A stretch of DNA of 64,000 nt from Leucothrix mucor DSM 2157 (GTDB lineage Bacteria > Pseudomonadota > Gammaproteobacteria > Thiotrichales > Thiotrichaceae). Below the pieces are notes generated by a model that was not told where the DNA came from, searched no databases, and saw only the letters and a list, made by a program, of their open reading frames with translations. Each line of letters begins with the position of its first letter. Position 1 is the stretch's first letter. The translations under genes were made by a program, and so were the position numbers. Positions 15,404-24,588 of this stretch are shown here, piece after piece. The stretch is from NCBI RefSeq assembly GCF_000419525.1, contig NZ_ATTE01000001.1, positions 2,154,655-2,218,654 of the forward strand, given 5' to 3'.

Positions 15404-17107
15404 TTACTCTGCGACTGGTGCATTGCTAACCAAACGCGCTGCCGTATTGCGGTTTTTCGGGTGCGTCAGCATGTGTCCATCGTAAAAGGCGAAAGCCTTC
15501 TGTAGGGATGGATAAGCAACGTTGGTGCTAGACGTGTGGTATGTCGCATAGGCGGTATTTGGAAAATAAGCCGTGTCGATGGTTGGCGCACGCCCGTCGT
15601 AGTTCGCAATGGATTGCAGCTCTGGCAGGCTCGGTAAACGCCATGTGGTGATGCCGCACAGTGCTTCAGTATTTACGCGTTGCGCAAAGGCTTCAGTATT
15701 ACACCAAGTCTCCGGCAGCCACGACTGATAGCCATGACAACTGATTAAGCTGGCATGTTGCCGCGTTCCGGCATCCCCGCCATTGGTGCTTGTATTGCTG
15801 TCATACCATGTGTATTGATCATCCGCGCCATGCAGTCCAGCCGCACGAATTCCCTCGGAAAGCCCGACTTTGCTTTCCCAGATCAGTCCGGTGACATTAT
15901 CTTTGACGCAAGACCACGTAGTCGCTTCTGCCGCTAATGGCTGGCCATCAGCATCGAGCTTGGTAAAGCTAAATCCGGCATGGCCATCGCTATCATCCGC
16001 ATGGGTAACATCACGGCCGTTTGTGGCATCTTGCTTAGGTGGAATCGGGTCGCCTTCGGCATCAACGCCTGAGCACGTGGTGAGGTCGGCATTATCATGC
16101 CCAACCACCGGAAAGTCTGCGCAAGTCACTGCACCCGTGTCATTCAGCTGCCCAAGTTGTACTGTCTGGCCCGGCTCTTCGACGGTGATTAACACTTTGG
16201 CGCTATCGGTTTTGCCGTAGATGTTTTCGACCACATACCAAAATTCATCCTGCCCCGTAAAATCGGCCGGTGGCGTGTACACAGCCTTATTACCGTCGAT
16301 GCTAATCGTGCCCCATTTCACCGAGCTTTCATTGACTGATTTAATGAATTTTCCAGTACCAAAGTCATTGGATAGCACATCAATGCTGATCTGAGTATTT
16401 TTTAAAATACGGCTGTTGTCTTCTCTGGCCGTCGTCCAATCCTGAGCGGCAGACTCGCCCAGCGCGATGGTGACTTTAGCGGAATTTGTGCGTCCCCAAG
16501 CATCGGTCATGACATACCAGAAACTATCCGTCTCCGGCCAGACCGCAGGCAAGCCGAGCTTGCGATAGCTCAGCGTTTTATTATCAGGGTTAATAAAGAC
16601 CTTACCGCCGTTACTGCTCCACTCATTCACGCTGGTCAGCGTCAAGCCCATCCCCGTATCATTCTCCAGTACCGGAATGGTGATGAGGTTTTGGTCGGTG
16701 GTGGTCGCTAGGTCGGCCGCTGCGCCGGGCCATGCTTCGGGTTTCTCACCCACGGGAGGCTCAGGGTCAGTCACATAGATCGCGACTTTAGCGGCGTTCT
16801 TTCTGCCTTCATTATCGGTGAAGTTATACCAGAAATAATCCACCCCTTTGAAGCCTGCCGCAGGCTGGTAGATAACAGACAGCTTGTCTTCACTGATTGA
16901 AGCGCTGCCGCCTTCGACGGTCGTGGTATTGACGGTGGTTAGCGCCAGCTCCGTGCCAATGTCATTATCTAGCACGGAAATGGTGGTGGATTGATCGGGC
17001 GTGGTGCTTACATAATCCGGCGTTGCGGTGGGCCAAGGGCTGGCCTGAGCCACACCGCCGAGTAAGCTAAGAATGGCGAGTGCTAAAACGTGCTTTTGTA
17101 GCCTCAT
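15404..17107 (-). CDS. Secreted protein with three Ig-like repeats and C-terminal DUF1566 domain
   Basis: About 567 residues from ATG 17107, chosen because it starts a clear signal peptide (MRLQKHVLALAILSLLGGVAQA) and has AAAGG 9 nt upstream; a 14-codon upstream extension is unlikely. After the signal come three tandem repeats of about 95 residues, each with an 'I.VLDNDIG...LT.VN' opening and a 'D.FWY...D..GR..SAKV' ending, as in cadherin-like/tandem-95 domains. The C-terminal DUF1566 domain carries DNVTGLIWESK and TWRLPSLPELQSIANYDGR. It is probably exported and may be involved in adhesion or carbohydrate contact, which is inference. Confidence 0.85.
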   Translation of the reverse strand: MRLQKHVLALAILSLLGGVAQASPWPTATPDYVSTTPDQSTTISVLDNDIGTELALTTVNTTTVEGGSASISEDKLSVIYQPAAGFKGVDYFWYNFTDNEGRKNAAKVAIYVTDPEPPVGEKPEAWPGAAADLATTTDQNLITIPVLENDTGMGLTLTSVNEWSSNGGKVFINPDNKTLSYRKLGLPAVWPETDSFWYVMTDAWGRTNSAKVTIALGESAAQDWTTAREDNSRILKNTQISIDVLSNDFGTGKFIKSVNESSVKWGTISIDGNKAVYTPPADFTGQDEFWYVVENIYGKTDSAKVLITVEEPGQTVQLGQLNDTGAVTCADFPVVGHDNADLTTCSGVDAEGDPIPPKQDATNGRDVTHADDSDGHAGFSFTKLDADGQPLAAEATTWSCVKDNVTGLIWESKVGLSEGIRAAGLHGADDQYTWYDSNTSTNGGDAGTRQHASLISCHGYQSWLPETWCNTEAFAQRVNTEALCGITTWRLPSLPELQSIANYDGRAPTIDTAYFPNTAYATYHTSSTNVAYPSLQKAFAFYDGHMLTHPKNRNTAARLVSNAPVAE

Positions 17108-17292
17108 GGGAGTGCCTTTATCAGTTAGTCGGGGTATTAAAAACCACAATAACCAGCGGCACTAAAGCAAGATATAACAGGCCCATTAAAGGCATAATGA
17201 GCCAGACCATCGGTAGTACATTTTATGGCGAACACGCTCATGCAAATGGTATGCGCAATCGCCAGTCAGTCACCTAAAAGCCATCAACGCGA

Positions 17293-19428
17293 CTAGACGC
17301 TTTTCGGCTCAACCGCCAGAAAGCCTGTCCAGCGATACGCTTGGTTATTAAACTCAACCGTCGTTTCACTTTGTTCAGTCGCATCAGGTCTATTATTAAC
17401 CATGACAGTCAGCGCAATGCCATCACCCAAAATCTCAATCACCGAAGCATTGTCATCAAAGCCAATCACATTCACAGACTGAATTTTACCGCTGGCATCG
17501 ATACTGATTTCTTTAGACTCGTTAAAGAAGCCGTGGGTTTCTACCACATTGGCAAACAAGCTATTGCTAGCCTCTCGGCGCAGTACAAAGCCTGGCTCAC
17601 TGCGCAGGTTAAATGACGGATCATTGGCCCCTGTGCGTGTGAAAATCAGCGTGTCGTCGGAGGATGAAGCGCTTAACCAGGTGTAGAAACTCTGGCCTTG
17701 TAACCAGCTCACTTTATTGGTGTCTTGCCCTGCACCCTCGGCCACATTCCACAGATGCTGATAACCAAAATCTTCACCCAATGCATTCATGGATGCGTGC
17801 TGCTGCGAGTCAACGTTGGTATCAATAATCTGACCTTGGTATTGCAGCGCGTAGTCATATTGGTGCGTTGCTTCACTGCTAAGACGGAATAAATCCACTA
17901 ATAGCGGCTGTGCCAACTGCTCATGTTCGATCAATATTAAAGTGCGCTGCTGATCAACGCCTGGGTAGAAGTCATGGGCAAAGGCGCTCATCGCCTGCGT
18001 GTTGCCAGTGCCGATAAAGAAATGCGGAACCGCGTGCTTGCTATCCCCGATGTCACAATCTGAATTGTTCTGGCTGCTGCCATCCACCGCTACCACATTG
18101 TGCGCGATGGTTTGACGTGCGTAAGAGGCATTTTCCGCAAGATAGCGGCCACCAAACTTCGGCTCAACATTGATCCAACGACCATAGCCATATTCACGTA
18201 ACACTTCTTGATTATTGTTGAAGTACGTCAGCCCCAGCGTATCGAAATGGCCATGTCCCATGCCGTGTTGACCATATGCCATAACCAGCTGGCTAATGTC
18301 GCCCTCAGCATTTTGCATACGGATAAAACCTTGCGCGCCTTTGTCGCCATTCGGGCCTTCGTTTAGCTCAACGCTAGGCAAGCATGGCAGCTCAACCGAG
18401 TCTTGCGCTTCATAAGCTTGAGACAGCGCCACACCGCAACCACTTACCCACACTTGGTTTTGGATTTTCGCGATGCCGTAGAGGTTTTTATCTTCGGGGT
18501 AATGCTTAGCATACAAACTCACGGCAATTACCACACCCTCGTCGGTAATATCCATGCTTTGTGAGGAGTCGTTCAAGGCTGGGAACACGCCATTAGGGTA
18601 AGCCGTTGAGAGCAATGCCTGAATGGTTTTGCGAATGACTTGATCTTTAAAGTTAAAGATATCGATTTCAGGGCGCAGTCGCTGGGTGATCTCTGCCAAC
18701 ACGCATAAAGGACGGATCGCATAACGGTGGTAATACGGCCCTTCGATGTAATAGCCAGACGGCGCAAATAAGTTACTGATCTGCGCAAGGAAGCCACCAG
18801 TGACATCATCCCCCGCTAAGCCATGCAGCGCTTGATCGATATATTTTTCCTGACCGCAAGCAACACCCATTGCCGCAACGCCCGCCACAGCCCACACGCC
18901 ATGGTTATGAATCGTGTCGTATTTGTCGCTGTATTTTACGGTCGCGACTTCCAGCATCGGCTCAAACAAGCGCTCGATAATGTGCTGGCGTTGCGCTTCT
19001 GATAGGTGACTACTGATACAGCTGTAACCCAAGCCCACATACATCATCCAAACATGCTCATTCAGCATTTGGTGAAATAAACGGCCCGGAGGGTTGGTAT
19101 TTTTCTGCTCGTGAAAGCCCATCTCTAAATACTTATCGGCGTATTCCGTTAGCAAGTCGGCGGCAAACTGCGCGTACTTGTCATCGCCAGTAATTAGAAA
19201 TAAACGCCCTGCCTGATCAATGTATTTACCATTTTGAACGTGTTTATTATGCGCGTAGCCACCGGCTGGACTTTGGCCGGGTACGTCGATGCCAAGCGCC
19301 AAATAGTTGTCTGTATCGAGAATGAGTGCGTCGAGGCTTTGGCCCATCAGGCTCGGTTTGCCAAGCTCTTGTTGGATGGCAGCGATTTCTTCTGGGTTCA
19401 GTAACACAGGCTTTGTATTGGAAGGCAT
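17293..19428 (-). CDS. PL17-like (oligo)alginate lyase, heparinase II/III fold, no signal peptide
   Basis: About 711 residues. ATG 19428 is preferred over GTG 19440 because GAG stands about 8 nt before it. The N-terminal two thirds form an alpha/alpha toroid with PL17-like landmarks NPPGRLFHQMLNEHVWMMYV, IHNHGVWAVAGVAAMGVA (near residue 175; His/Asn expected in the active site) and LFAPSGYYIEGPYYHRYAI. The C-terminal third is the heparinase II/III beta-sandwich (GHGHFDTLGLTYF; YARQTIAHNVVAVDG). PL17 enzymes are usually exolytic oligoalginate lyases giving unsaturated monouronates. No signal peptide is seen, so a cytoplasmic location is likely. The same region holds an importer and a second lyase. 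Related polyuronates remain possible substrates. Confidence 0.85.
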   Translation of the reverse strand: MPSNTKPVLLNPEEIAAIQQELGKPSLMGQSLDALILDTDNYLALGIDVPGQSPAGGYAHNKHVQNGKYIDQAGRLFLITGDDKYAQFAADLLTEYADKYLEMGFHEQKNTNPPGRLFHQMLNEHVWMMYVGLGYSCISSHLSEAQRQHIIERLFEPMLEVATVKYSDKYDTIHNHGVWAVAGVAAMGVACGQEKYIDQALHGLAGDDVTGGFLAQISNLFAPSGYYIEGPYYHRYAIRPLCVLAEITQRLRPEIDIFNFKDQVIRKTIQALLSTAYPNGVFPALNDSSQSMDITDEGVVIAVSLYAKHYPEDKNLYGIAKIQNQVWVSGCGVALSQAYEAQDSVELPCLPSVELNEGPNGDKGAQGFIRMQNAEGDISQLVMAYGQHGMGHGHFDTLGLTYFNNNQEVLREYGYGRWINVEPKFGGRYLAENASYARQTIAHNVVAVDGSSQNNSDCDIGDSKHAVPHFFIGTGNTQAMSAFAHDFYPGVDQQRTLILIEHEQLAQPLLVDLFRLSSEATHQYDYALQYQGQIIDTNVDSQQHASMNALGEDFGYQHLWNVAEGAGQDTNKVSWLQGQSFYTWLSASSSDDTLIFTRTGANDPSFNLRSEPGFVLRREASNSLFANVVETHGFFNESKEISIDASGKIQSVNVIGFDDNASVIEILGDGIALTVMVNNRPDATEQSETTVEFNNQAYRWTGFLAVEPKSV

Positions 19429-19725
19429 TGATTTTCTCACTCACTAAAAATGGTAGTCATAAAAAAGGGGCAGCACCCTTTTGCGCATTATTCGCTTGAG
19501 TTGTCGACTCTTTCGATAAGCATAGCACAACTAATATCTTAGTTTAACTATCTAATATATTTCAAGGCGTTTTTAGAAGAAATCTGCTGCGGGGCTAGCT
19601 ACTGCGTTGTTTACGATTACAAAAAATACTCAAAACTATTATTAATGATAATTTCCTGAACTAATAAAACAGATGTACATTGCTCCTCATCGACAATCCT
19701 GTCCTCTTTTTTAAAGGTAGACCGT

Positions 19726-20820
19726 ATGACTGCTTCACTTTTTGAGCCGATTAAATTGGGCAATTTAACACTTAAGAATCGTATCGTGATGCCACCGATG
19801 ACGCGCTCACGAGCCACACAGCCAGGTAATAGCGCCAATGAGTTAATGGCAGAGTATTACGCGCAACGCGCCACTGCTGGGTTAATCGTGAGTGAAGGCA
19901 CGCAAATCTCAGCACTGGGCCAAGGCTATGCCTGGACGCCGGGTATCTACTCGCCTGAGCAGATTGCAGGCTGGAAAAAAGTCACCACTGCAGTACATGA
20001 GAAAGGCGGCGTGATGTTTGCGCAGCTATGGCATGTTGGCCGTGTGTCGCACCCTGATAATACGGGCGGCGTGCAGCCTATTTCATCCTCTGCCCTGAAA
20101 GCGGAAAACGTGAAAGTGTTTGTTGATAATGGCAAACAAGAGCCGGGCTTTGTGGATGTGGTAATGCCACGCGAAATGACTAAAGCGGATATCAAGGCCG
20201 TGGTCGAAGAGTATCGCCAAGCAGTACTTAACGCGATGGAAGCCGGCTTTGATGGGATCGAGTTGCATGCGGCGAATGGCTATTTGATAAATCAATTTAT
20301 CGACTCTGAAGCAAATAACCGTACCGATGAATACGGCGGCTCGACGGAAAACCGTTTACGCTTCTTGGGTGAAGTGGTTGCGGCATTGGTTGAGGCGATT
20401 GGCGCGGATCGTGTTGGGGTGCGGTTGGCTCCGCTGACTTCATTAAATGGCACAGTGGATGCGACACCAGTTGAAACTTATACCGCCGCCGCGGCATTGT
20501 TAAATACGTATAAGGTTGCCTATTTGCATATCGCCGAAGTGGATTGGGATGATGCACCGGATACACCGGTTTCATTCAAGCAGGGCCTGCGTAAGGCTTT
20601 CCAAGGCGTGCTGATATTTGCAGGTCGTTATAATGCAGAGAAAGCTGAGCAAGCATTGGCTGATGGCTTGGCGGATATGATTGGCTTTGGGCGGCCTTTT
20701 GTAGCGAATCCTGATCTGCCGAATCGGATGAAGCATGGCTATCCGCTGGCAGAGCATGTGCCTGAAACGCTGTTTGGTGGCGCAGAAAAGGGGCTGACTG
20801 ATTATCCGGTTTATGGATAG
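19726..20820 (+). CDS. Old yellow enzyme family alkene reductase (NemA-like)
   Basis: 364 residues, the usual length. FMN-binding TIM barrel with LFEPIKLGNLTLKNRIVMPPMTRSRA at the N-terminus, the substrate triad in HAANGYLINQF (His, Asn, Tyr as in OYE) and the family stretch DEYGGSTENRLRF. It reduces activated C=C bonds or nitro compounds with NAD(P)H. AAAGG lies 8 nt upstream of the ATG. It is divergent from the PL17 gene; a link to uronate metabolism is possible but not shown, since OYEs also occur alone as electrophile-detoxifying enzymes. Confidence 0.93.
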   Translation: MTASLFEPIKLGNLTLKNRIVMPPMTRSRATQPGNSANELMAEYYAQRATAGLIVSEGTQISALGQGYAWTPGIYSPEQIAGWKKVTTAVHEKGGVMFAQLWHVGRVSHPDNTGGVQPISSSALKAENVKVFVDNGKQEPGFVDVVMPREMTKADIKAVVEEYRQAVLNAMEAGFDGIELHAANGYLINQFIDSEANNRTDEYGGSTENRLRFLGEVVAALVEAIGADRVGVRLAPLTSLNGTVDATPVETYTAAAALLNTYKVAYLHIAEVDWDDAPDTPVSFKQGLRKAFQGVLIFAGRYNAEKAEQALADGLADMIGFGRPFVANPDLPNRMKHGYPLAEHVPETLFGGAEKGLTDYPVYG

Positions 20821-20869: not shown

Positions 20870-20998
20870 TTAGTGGTGTTCAATCTCATCGAGCACCACT
20901 AAAGCACTCAAGCAAGTACGAGTTGCTATGAGTGCCAGAGGAATTTTCGCACAACATTGAATGTCATCACGTATCACAGGGCCCTTTCTGGTGCACCA
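20870..20998. promoter_or_regulatory. Candidate enhancer (activator) sites upstream of the sigma-54 promoter
   Basis: TTAGTGGTG (20870-20878) and CACCACTAA (20894-20902) form a 9-bp inverted repeat; TGGTGCACCA (20989-20998) is a perfect palindrome. Both share TGGTG/CACCA half sites that resemble NtrC sites (TGCACCA...TGGTGCA). They lie about 60-190 bp upstream of the promoter, a normal enhancer distance. The first repeat could instead be a terminator of the upstream gene. Confidence 0.35.
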
Positions 20999-21057: not shown

Positions 21058-21073
21058 TGGCACGCAGATTGCT
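21058..21073 (+). promoter_or_regulatory. Sigma-54 (RpoN) promoter of the aspartase-fusion gene
   Basis: TGGCACG-CAGA-TTGCT matches the -24/-12 consensus TGGCACG-N4-TTGCW at every position, with the required 10 bp between GG (21059-21060) and GC (21071-21072). The start codon is 44 nt downstream of the -12 element, leaving a short leader. Sigma-54 promoters need an AAA+ activator, often NtrC or a dicarboxylate sensor. Confidence 0.8.
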
Positions 21074-21116
21074 CTGATAGGGAAATACACTCCAAAACCT
21101 CCCTATCGAAAGGATA

Positions 21117-22979
21117 ATGCACCAAATGAATACGAAATCCGTCACTGAGCTGTTAAGTGAAGTTGAGCTGTTTCAAGGTATCGACGCCCCAGACCTCGCA
21201 CTCTTTGCAGAACATGCTCAATGCCAGACGCTGTTGGCCGGAGATATTCTGTTTCGTACTAATGACTTGACCGATGCGCTGTACGTCATTGCCTCGGGCA
21301 GTATTCAGCTGTTCGATGACCAAGGAGCACGGGAGCGAAGCCTCACGGTATTTTCACAATACGAATTCATTGGTGAAACCATGCTGATCGCGCCGGCGCA
21401 CCGCCAAGGCGTGTGTGCACGGTTGTTATCCGATGGTGTTTTATATCGCTTTGAGCGGGATGCATTGCATGAATTACTCAGTCAGCGCGGCGATCTGGCC
21501 TTAAAAATCTCTGCGACGATTTCGCAAATTATTATTCGCCGCATGGAGCACGCCAACAGCCGTTATAAAAACATCTCCGCGCTGTATCGAGCCAGAGGCA
21601 AGCGTATCGAACATGACTTACTGGGCGATAAAGAAGTGCCAGCAACTGCCTATTACGGTATCCAAACGCTGCGAGCTTTGGAGAATTTTAATATCAGCGG
21701 CATTAGCCTCAACTTCTACCCCGACTTTATTAAGGGGCTAGCCAAGGTCAAAAAAGCGGCGGCGATTGCCAATCATGAATTGGGGCATATTCCGGATGAG
21801 CTGATCGGAGCCATTTGCCAAGCTTGCGATGAGATCGGATTGGGCATGCTGCATAACCATTTTATCGTCGACATGCTGCAAGGCGGTGCGGGTACTTCCA
21901 CTAATATGAATGCCAATGAAGTAATTGCCAACCGGACCTTAGAAATCCTCGGGCATCGCCGTGGTGAATATCAGTATTGTCATCCTAACAATCACATCAA
22001 CCGCTCCCAATCCACCAATGACGCTTACCCGACTGCAATCAAAGTTGCGCTCATGGATGCCAATGACAAGCTACTGGCGGAAGTTCACAAGCTGATTGAC
22101 GTGATCGATGATAAGACTTTTGAGTTTGCAGATATTCTAAAAATGGGCCGCACTCAGTTGCAAGATGCCGTGCCAATGACCCTAGGCCAAAGCTTTAACG
22201 CCTACGCCACCAGTTTGCGCAATGAGGTCAAACGCCTGAAAACCTGTAGTCAATCGTTTCTAACCGTGAATATGGGTGGGACGGCAATTGGTACCGGCCT
22301 GAACGCCGACCCGCGCTACCGTGAGCGCGTGGTACAGCATCTAAGCAAAGTCACCGGTCGGGATATTGTGCTGGCCGATGATTTGATTGAAGCCACCCAC
22401 GATACCGGCTCGCTGGTGATGTATTCATCCGCACTAAAACAGCTGGCGGTAAAGCTCTCCAAAATCTGTAATGACCTGCGCCTGATGTCATCCGGCCCAC
22501 GTGCCGGACTCAATGAAATCAACCTGCCACCGATGCAGCCAGGTTCCTCCATTATGCCGGGCAAAGTGAATCCGGTGATTCCTGAAGTGGTTAACCAAAT
22601 CGCCTTTAAAGTGATTGGAAATGACCTGACCACCACACTTGGTGCCGAGGCCGGACAACTGGAACTCAATGTGATGGAACCCGTCATGGTCGAGAGTTTA
22701 TTTGAGTCAATCGAGATTCTAAAGCGCGGCATGGATACCTTGGGTAGTCGCTGTATTGCGGGTATCACCGCTAATAAAACGGTGTGCGCCGACAATGTTA
22801 AAAACTCTATTGGCTTAGTGACTGCGCTCAATCCGCACTTAGGTTATGAGGTCTGCACCGCGCTGGCAAAAGAAGCGCTAGAGCATAATCGCAGCGTGTA
22901 TGATTTGGTGCTTGAGCAGGAGTTACTCTCGAAAGAACAGCTTGATGAGGTACTCGCGCCGGAAAACATGGTGCGCTAA
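21117..22979 (+). CDS. aspA: Cyclic-nucleotide-binding domain fused to aspartate ammonia-lyase
   Basis: 620 residues. Residues about 10-145 form a CRP-like cNMP-binding domain (ILFRTNDLTDALYVIASGSI; then GETMLIAPAHRQGVCARL, retaining the Glu and Arg expected to contact cAMP but with Gln where CRP has Ser). From about 155 to the end it is a complete aspartase: YYGIQTLRALENF, GGAGTSTNMNANEVIANR, SQSTNDAYPTA and the fumarase/aspartase signature GSSIMPGKVNP at 476-486. Aspartase releases ammonia and fumarate from aspartate. An ordinary aspartase is about 470 residues, so the first 150 are an added sensor domain. ATG 21126 is an alternative start. A sigma-54 promoter precedes it and an acidic amino-acid symporter gene follows. 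Confidence 0.9.
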   Translation: MHQMNTKSVTELLSEVELFQGIDAPDLALFAEHAQCQTLLAGDILFRTNDLTDALYVIASGSIQLFDDQGARERSLTVFSQYEFIGETMLIAPAHRQGVCARLLSDGVLYRFERDALHELLSQRGDLALKISATISQIIIRRMEHANSRYKNISALYRARGKRIEHDLLGDKEVPATAYYGIQTLRALENFNISGISLNFYPDFIKGLAKVKKAAAIANHELGHIPDELIGAICQACDEIGLGMLHNHFIVDMLQGGAGTSTNMNANEVIANRTLEILGHRRGEYQYCHPNNHINRSQSTNDAYPTAIKVALMDANDKLLAEVHKLIDVIDDKTFEFADILKMGRTQLQDAVPMTLGQSFNAYATSLRNEVKRLKTCSQSFLTVNMGGTAIGTGLNADPRYRERVVQHLSKVTGRDIVLADDLIEATHDTGSLVMYSSALKQLAVKLSKICNDLRLMSSGPRAGLNEINLPPMQPGSSIMPGKVNPVIPEVVNQIAFKVIGNDLTTTLGAEAGQLELNVMEPVMVESLFESIEILKRGMDTLGSRCIAGITANKTVCADNVKNSIGLVTALNPHLGYEVCTALAKEALEHNRSVYDLVLEQELLSKEQLDEVLAPENMVR

Positions 22980-23232: not shown

Positions 23233-24588
23233 ATGAGTGAAGCGAAGAAAATGAGTTTAACGATCAAAGTGCTATTAGGCATGGGTCTTGGAATTCTCGT
23301 GGGGTTGTTTCTTAACCTCACGGGTTTAGTTGCCAACCCATTTGTTGATGGCTATATCGTTAACGGGCTGTTCCACATTGTTGGAAAAATGTTTGTTAAC
23401 GCCCTGAAAATGCTAGTCGTACCCTTAGTCTTCTTCTCGTTGATTTGTGGTGTGTGCGGCATCGGCGATATCAGAATGCTGGGTCGAGTTGGCGGCAAAT
23501 CGTTTGCCCTCTACATGATGACCACAGCCATCGCGATTGCGACAGCGATCATCATCGCCGTGACTTTCGGTATCGGTAAGGGCATGAATGTTGATTCTGC
23601 TGCGAATTTCACGGGTAAAGAGTCACCACCACTGAGCGAAGTACTGATCAGCATTATCCCGACCAATCCGGTTAATGCCATGGCTCAGGGCGATATGCTG
23701 CCGCTGATTTTCTTCTCTATTCTGTTGGGTATCAGCATGCTGCTGGTCGGTAGAAAAGCGAAGGGATTTGTTGCGGGCGCAGAAGTGGCCAATGAAATCA
23801 TGATGAAGATGGTGACCATTGTGATGGCCGTTGCGCCGTATGCTGTGTTTGCCCTGATTGCAAAATCAATTGCGACCTTAGGTTTGGATTTACTCTACTC
23901 CTTAGCAGGCTACGTGCTGGTACTGGTCGGTGCATTGATGTTCCATTTGTTCTTCACCTTAATGGTTGTGCTCAAAGTATTCTCCGGTTTGAGCCCTTCA
24001 ATCTTCCTGAAGAAAATCCGCAATGTGCAGGTGTTTGCCTTTAGTACCGCCAGCTCCAATGCAACGATCCCCGTGACCATGCGGACCGTGACTGAGCGCT
24101 TTGGTGTGAACAACTCTGTTGCGTCATTTACCGTTCCGTTTGGTGCCACCATCAATATGGATGGTACGGCGATCATGCAAGGTGTCGCGACGGTATTTAT
24201 TGCCAACGTGTATGGCGTTGAGCTAGGTATCGCAGGCTATCTAACCGTCATCCTGATGTCAGTACTGGCTTCTATTGGAACCGCCGGTGTACCAGGTGTT
24301 GGTTTGATCATGCTGTCGATGGTATTCGCACAGGTTGGTTTGCCGATCGAAGGTATTGGTTTGATCTTGGGTGTTGATCGCCTGATGGATATGATCAGAA
24401 CTGCCGTAAACGTATCAGGTGATGCGACGGTATCGACGATTGTTGCTAAGAGTGAAGGTAAGCTGGATCTTGCAGTGTATAACGACCCGGATGCAGGCAC
24501 TTACGACAACGATGAGATCGGCGAGTTTGATGCTGAAGTGGAAGCTGAAATGGCTCAGGCTATCCAAGAGTCCAGAGAGAAAAAATAA
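23233..24588 (+). CDS. Dicarboxylate/amino acid:cation symporter (DAACS family)
   Basis: 451 residues with about eight helices and the two re-entrant loops of the GltP/DctA fold. The first loop has FSTASSNATIPVT and the transport core has PFGATINMDGTAIMQG, with the NMDGT motif at 308-312 that holds the cation and substrate; later VPGVGLIMLSMVF and GVDRLMDMIRTAVNVSGD are typical. The acidic C-terminal tail of about 40 residues (EAEMAQAIQESREKK at the end) is a normal variable region. It follows the aspartase-fusion gene, so uptake of aspartate or another acidic substrate feeding the lyase is likely. A strong terminator closes the pair. Confidence 0.92.
   Translation: MSEAKKMSLTIKVLLGMGLGILVGLFLNLTGLVANPFVDGYIVNGLFHIVGKMFVNALKMLVVPLVFFSLICGVCGIGDIRMLGRVGGKSFALYMMTTAIAIATAIIIAVTFGIGKGMNVDSAANFTGKESPPLSEVLISIIPTNPVNAMAQGDMLPLIFFSILLGISMLLVGRKAKGFVAGAEVANEIMMKMVTIVMAVAPYAVFALIAKSIATLGLDLLYSLAGYVLVLVGALMFHLFFTLMVVLKVFSGLSPSIFLKKIRNVQVFAFSTASSNATIPVTMRTVTERFGVNNSVASFTVPFGATINMDGTAIMQGVATVFIANVYGVELGIAGYLTVILMSVLASIGTAGVPGVGLIMLSMVFAQVGLPIEGIGLILGVDRLMDMIRTAVNVSGDATVSTIVAKSEGKLDLAVYNDPDAGTYDNDEIGEFDAEVEAEMAQAIQESREKK

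Follow-up and report, generated by a model that had tools for sequence, protein, structure and literature searches.

The fusion gene described here lies in a 64,000-nucleotide stretch of the genome of the marine bacterium Leucothrix mucor DSM 2157 (contig NZ_ATTE01000001.1), referred to below as the window. The genome is 5.19 Mb in two contigs and contains two other hits, 40% and 25% identical. Aspartase, a textbook deaminating enzyme, yields fumarate and ammonia. The features of the locus, all on the forward strand, are as follows.

20983..20994, + strand: candidate upstream activator (enhancer) element CCTTTCTGGTGC, 75 nt upstream of the TGG of the -24 box
21058..21073, + strand: sigma-54 -24/-12 promoter-like site TGGCACGCAGATTGCT, an exact match, ending 43 nt before the ATG at 21117
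21117..22979, + strand: cNMP-domain/aspartase fusion gene, 620 aa, from the open reading frame and domain searches; Met4 (21126) is an alternative start
21117..21587, + strand: N-terminal cNMP-fold domain with C-helix, residues 1-157, from PF00027 and PDB sequence matches
21357..21422, + strand: phosphate-binding-cassette segment, residues 81-102; Glu87 is kept and the Arg column holds Gln97 (codon 21405-21407)
21603..22976, + strand: aspartase domain, residues 163-620, from the TIGR00839 match and the GSSIMPGKVNP loop
23233..24588, + strand: SDF-family (GltP-like) symporter, PF00375 at 405.7 bits, after a 253-nt gap

Domain searches of the product placed a cyclic-nucleotide-binding domain at the N-terminus and an aspartase at the C-terminus. 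The cNMP_binding family PF00027 matched residues 38-123 with 47.9 bits (gathering cutoff 27.5), and CRP-, PKA- and PKG-type PDB entries were matched to the N-domain by sequence. Lyase_1 was found at residues 171-501 and FumaraseC_C at residues 567-619, and the TIGR00839 aspA equivalog model matched residues 163-619 with 713.1 bits, above its cutoff of 681.2. The translation contains GSSIMPGKVNP, corresponding to the signature loop GSSxMPxKxN. In 48 fused rows, G476, S477, I479-K483 and N485 of this loop are invariant, and S478 is neither an invariant nor a 90% column; Ser477 we take to be the catalytic serine. As judged from these matches, open reading frame 21117-22979 is a genuine fusion of a cNMP-binding domain to a predicted aspartase, as the initial annotation had proposed, and its further claim that the aspartase is complete is likewise borne out.

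Relatives of the fusion were collected by a scan of species genomes, from which the best 80 of 575 were kept, a set that is hence biased to fusions. All 80 of these loci match over both parts, with the match starting at residue 12 or earlier in each and reaching residue 617 or beyond in 79; the remaining locus, L029, is cut by a contig end. Fusion holders among the best 80 of 575 are Cocleimonas, Reinekea, two Vibrio species, a Hahella draft genome, many Bacteroidota and Ignavibacteriota, Zixibacteria and a few others. Aspartases were also surveyed for N-terminal cNMP domains in even draws of genomes by phylum, with a match threshold of E up to 1e-130, as the initial annotation had suggested. 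Among 199 Pseudomonadota genomes, 39 had an aspartase match and one of the 39, that of L. mucor, was fused; among 198 genomes of Bacteroidota, the phylum of Perlabentimonas, the corresponding numbers were 30 and 11. Within the family of L. mucor, this fusion (type 1) was found in five of 63 genomes and a second fusion type in four of 63. Contig positions of the fusion in the same-family genomes G001 and G012 equal those of the Cocleimonas loci L023 and L022, and from these coordinates we infer that L. mucor is a relative of Cocleimonas. By these matches the cNMP-aspartase fusion is a cross-phylum family and not a one-off. The nearest unfused aspartases were also inspected for a decayed fusion at their 5' side; no remnant of an N-domain was present in about 900 nt of upstream DNA for L158 or in about 180-250 nt for L140, L141, L155 and L156.

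The type-2 cNMP-aspartases (L010, L011, L012 and L013, from the same family as L. mucor) have a lyase that is 47-49% identical. The two that were scanned gave aspA equivalog scores of 548 and 556 bits, below the cutoff, and weaker cNMP matches of 34.3 and 28.7 bits; His occupies the cassette Arg position, as placed by eye in the type-1 register. In a tree of 120 aspartase domains, built with every second locus of L030-L100, the 58 type-1 rows form one side of a branch with an SH-aLRT value of 91 (below the mark of 95), and the four type-2 rows stand beside unfused gammaproteobacterial enzymes, at a junction that the program flagged for long branches. The 26 type-1 N-domains form a clade of their own (100/99). 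A profile of the type-1 N-domain scored seven held-out type-1 rows at 190-231 bits and type-2 domains at 56-58 bits, the latter mid-range among ordinary cNMP domains (18-86 bits). Type 2 is apparently a second lineage, separate from type 1. In an 82-row tree, thinned further and with 8 named long or odd rows omitted, joining both types cost 26.9 log-likelihood units (AU p = 0.059); two separate acquisitions of the cNMP domain are the better reading, and a single origin is not formally rejected at this value.

The cyclic-nucleotide pocket was analysed in an alignment of 82 rows, comprising the L. mucor fusion, L005 and L021-L100. It excludes L001, L004, L006 and L007 (the same places as L. mucor, L021, L022 and L023), L010, and loci with a match starting after residue 12; the 48-row alignment A1 and the 26-row alignment A2 are subsets. 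Glu87, at the position of the cassette Glu that contacts the ribose 2'-OH in cAMP and cGMP receptors, is present in 82/82 rows and Gly86 in 80/82. Arg141 and Arg142 are each present in 82/82 rows and Asn147 in 76/82. At column 97, five residues before the Ala-Arg anchor and the position of the Arg that grips the cyclic phosphate in canonical receptors, there is His in 71 rows, Gln in 10 (L. mucor among them), Tyr in 1 and Arg in none of the 82. The Ser following the column-97 His is kept in 71/82 rows; CRP has Arg-Ser at the cassette positions where most fusion relatives show His-Ser. Where Plasmodium-type PKG and a Toxoplasma cNMP protein have their cassette Arg, a profile of 26 N-domains placed this His, and in the printed alignments the cassette was free of gaps.

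The loop is one residue longer in the gammaproteobacterial rows, which brings Arg96 of L. mucor beside the cassette position, and a phmmer alignment of the L. mucor protein alone pairs Arg96 with the cassette Arg. The alignment of the whole family and the constant distance to the Ala-Arg anchor speak against this pairing and put the cassette-Arg column at residue 97; the Arg96 column is variable (Pro 59, Lys 7, Thr 5, Arg 2 and others in 82 rows). The initial annotation had read the cassette as keeping both Glu and Arg, with Gln at the CRP Ser position. The Glu stands, but the Arg is lost and the Gln occupies the Arg position rather than that of Ser, the earlier register being one residue off. 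As a control, 30 of 71 cNMP matches from six fused genomes were fetched, of which 3 were the fusion itself; among the other 27 domains the Glu was present in 12, and the Arg in 11 of those 12. Within this control set, loss of the Arg with retention of the Glu appears largely confined to the fusion. On its predicted pocket residues the N-domain is not a classical cAMP/cGMP receptor: it retains the ribose-contacting Glu, but Gln in L. mucor and His in most relatives take the place of the phosphate-neutralizing Arg.

Variability along the protein was compared by column entropy. Within the N-domain the cassette (1.25 bits) and the C-helix (1.24 bits) vary less than the rest (1.91 and 2.24 bits); the aspartase domain stands at 0.76 bits. 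dN/dS for the N-domain was 0.03-0.12 against four relatives, the four of seven pairs that were computable, with dS at 1.8-4.5, near saturation. In seven pairs, the dN of the N-domain exceeded that of the aspartase domain by a factor of 1.8-3.3. The N-domain is, by these measures, maintained, with the putative pocket among its best-kept parts; this conservation could instead reflect folding or dimerization. Tyr157 and Arg163 are both present in 82/82 rows, and since they are only six residues apart the C-helix probably continues into the N-terminus of the lyase with almost no linker.

A sigma-54 promoter ahead of the gene was a further claim of the initial annotation. TGGCACGCAGATTGCT is the sole match with fewer than two mismatches in the window; sites with up to two mismatches numbered 14, against 13.7 expected by chance. 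The sigma-54 reading carries weight because the site is conserved across the clade, not from the match in a single window. Of the 11 sequences in the gammaproteobacterial clade, 7 carry a strong -24/-12 site, with the GG/GC spacing conserved and the distance to the ATG varying; L006 and L007, both among these seven, are near-identical. Shuffling gave p values from <0.001 to 0.008, and at most 1.5% of 4000 random 400-nt windows were as good, some of which contain these very sites. L025-L028, of the same clade, had no sigma-54 site. Seven loci outside the clade scored low, L070 alone showing a weak site, and a simpler sigma-54 scan picked up none of L030-L100.

Six of the seven promoters (L. mucor, L004, L005, L006, L007 and L029, but not L024) share an element resembling CCTTTTTGGTGC, which precedes the -24 box by 73-76 nt; in these six the -24 box itself is 59 to 159 nt from the ATG. 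Leave-one-out tests of the element gave p ≤ 0.0028 for each of five sequences, with a spacing window taken from the same data. CCTTTCTGGTGC is the sole exact match to itself in the window. When whole genomes were scanned for the exact element/promoter pair, it occurred once per genome, at the fusion gene, in four of the five genomes, and a reversed control gave no hits; the L. mucor genome has no exact pair, its element differing by one base. An NtrC-type dyad, searched with one spacing in 11 upstream regions, matched with one or two mismatches in L024, L026 and L029 only. rpoN was present in all ten genomes checked, that of L. mucor included. The layout is, as read from the DNA, that of a sigma-54 promoter with a dedicated activator site, and the earlier promoter assignment holds up on the exact site, its conservation in the clade, the shared upstream element and the presence of rpoN.

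Potential sources of cyclic nucleotide were sought in the fused genomes. The L. mucor genome, 100% complete by estimate, has no match to class III (PF00211), class I (PF01295) or CYTH (PF01928) cyclase families; judged by these three families the host gives no sign of making cAMP, a statement that applies to L. mucor alone. A class III cyclase is present in 23/32 fused genomes. The nine that lack one, several of which are drafts, comprise two Vibrio genomes with a class I cyclase and seven with neither class, and each of four relatives of the L. mucor genome has one CYTH protein. None of the 8 other cNMP domains of the L. mucor genome has the Glu and Arg pair as aligned. The absence of this pair, the absence of cyclase matches in L. 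mucor and the missing cassette Arg count against the carbon control through a CRP-like cyclic-nucleotide response that the initial annotation had suggested; its remark that the ligand of the cNMP domain is open stands. Two long open frames elsewhere in the L. mucor genome, of 568 aa (L167, G000:C1:2648200-2650200) and 651 aa (L168, G000:C1:4631700-4634000), also carry an N-terminal cNMP domain without the Glu and Arg pair.

The reading we favour, and consider somewhat better than an even bet, is that the product is an aspartase bearing at its N-terminus a CRP/PKA-type sensor for a ligand other than cAMP, and that a sigma-54 promoter, served by an upstream activator site of its own, drives its expression. 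The N-domain varies least in its pocket and C-helix and for that reason is probably a real ligand domain, allosteric or coupled to oligomerization, and since the fusion occurs in several phyla without the part that grips cAMP, the enzyme is probably controlled by some other small molecule. A non-cAMP ligand would bind the N-domain, and binding would be transmitted along the C-helix into the N-terminus of the aspartase; sigma-54 control would give induction under nitrogen or dicarboxylate signals. A broader proposal, which we put forward only tentatively, is that several phyla have placed aspartase under direct metabolite control through a repurposed cyclic-nucleotide fold that reads another ligand, for example an uncharged purine nucleoside, and that this arose at least twice – type 1 across phyla and type 2 in the family of L. 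mucor – each time with His or Gln in place of the Arg.

It is also conceivable that the N-domain still binds cAMP, cGMP or c-di-GMP through a non-canonical pocket, which would put the aspartase under carbon or second-messenger control. The invariance of Glu87 is in keeping with this, and His and Ser at the positions of the Arg-Ser of CRP might still hold a phosphate; because of the 23 class III genomes and the CYTH proteins in four relatives, other members of the fusion family may bind a cyclic nucleotide in an unusual way. In L. mucor, on the other hand, cAMP is an unlikely ligand given its predicted pocket and gene content, without a match to the three cyclase families or another cNMP domain with the aligned Glu and Arg. 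Across the family, the canonical Arg is absent from every row and seven of the nine fused genomes without a class III cyclase also lack class I, and we regard cyclic-nucleotide binding as distinctly unlikely overall. The N-domain might alternatively bind no ligand and serve as a dimerization or scaffolding module, either stabilizing the tetramer of the aspartase or docking the enzyme to a partner. cNMP folds without a ligand are known, and both the loss of the cassette Arg and the higher dN of the N-domain would fit such a role; the least variable N-domain stretches, however, include the cassette with its invariant Glu, which a scaffold does not obviously need, and this explanation seems to us rather unlikely.

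That the sigma-54 match arose by chance, with the fusion gene transcribed from another promoter, we consider very unlikely. The chance-level number of looser matches in the window and the four clade sequences without a site are what it would predict, but it does not account for a site in seven of 11 sequences at differing distances from the ATG, for a second element at a near-constant spacing in six of these seven, or for an exact pair that marks the fusion gene, once per genome, in four of five genomes. On the favoured reading of a non-cAMP sensor, a cross-phylum family with a conserved but altered sensor implies a regulatory input not found in the open-access papers searched, and the fusion lends itself to a tractable enzyme assay of what is sensed by a cAMP-type fold that has lost its phosphate-binding Arg.

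The fusion is a variant of a known theme, that of an enzyme carrying a CRP/PKA-type regulatory domain. It shares with AspA of the E. coli type (TIGR00839) the same complete lyase domain, the L. mucor protein scoring above the equivalog cutoff, and differs in its N-domain, aspartase being unfused in 38 of the 39 aspartase-bearing genomes of the Pseudomonadota draw. To our knowledge E. coli AspA has no such cNMP domain; E. coli aspartase reportedly interacts with the PII protein GlnB. The mycobacterial protein acetyltransferase Pat (type III cAMP-GNAT) has an N-terminal CRP/PKA-type domain, and cAMP relieves its autoinhibition (PMC8556138). Pat likewise has such a domain at the N-terminus of an enzyme, but its catalytic domain is unrelated and its regulatory domain binds cAMP, unlike the fusion family, which lacks the cassette Arg. 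In the trypanosomatid PKA regulatory subunit, the cassette Arg is replaced by a polar residue, the first Glu is kept and the pocket is switched to purine nucleosides (PMC10959531). The fusion shows the same exchange of Arg for a polar residue, with Gln or His at position 97. It lacks the second ribose-binding Glu of that subunit, two residues after the first; column 89 is most often S (38 of 82 rows), A (17), I (11) or T (8), and Met in L. mucor. Family 2B encapsulins also attach a cNMP domain to a protein other than a transcription factor, but this protein is a shell component and not an enzyme; the family 2B model matched fusion residues 6-138 weakly, with 29.8 bits against a cutoff of 400. 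No paper joining aspartase with a cyclic-nucleotide domain was found in the open-access literature searched, most subscription journals being outside this scope.

The gene downstream of the fusion (23233-24588) encodes a symporter of the SDF family, in agreement with the initial annotation; its best NCBIfam match is GltP, at 263.4 bits below the cutoff of 638. No SDF symporter homologue was found in the available flanks of the other fusion loci, many of which are short. The symporter is a sensible partner for an aspartase, but within these flanks it stands beside the fusion only in L. mucor and is not a conserved neighbour of it. A conserved operon partner was sought by clustering neighbours over 82 loci, and no cluster spanned clades: the largest besides the fusion itself covered 19/82 and 15/82 loci, neither with a window gene among those shown, and the Pfam names of 19 chosen neighbours revealed no common function.

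Several other observations were made on neighbouring genes. Homologues of the SDF symporter occur at three unfused aspartase loci from three other genomes (L108, L114 and L129), so aspartase and symporter are also paired where the cNMP domain is missing. Immediately ahead of the fusion, window positions 19726-20820 encode an old-yellow-enzyme-type flavin oxidoreductase that clusters with L022:1031-2128, about 2.9 kb upstream of the fusion in a Cocleimonas genome. At 15404-19440 a heparinase/alginate-lyase-like protein adjoins one that combines bacterial Ig repeats with a C-terminal Lcl domain. In L056, from a draft genome labelled Syntrophomonadaceae, the fusion lies next to a heliorhodopsin (L056:6969-8222) whose N-terminus carries MORN repeats.
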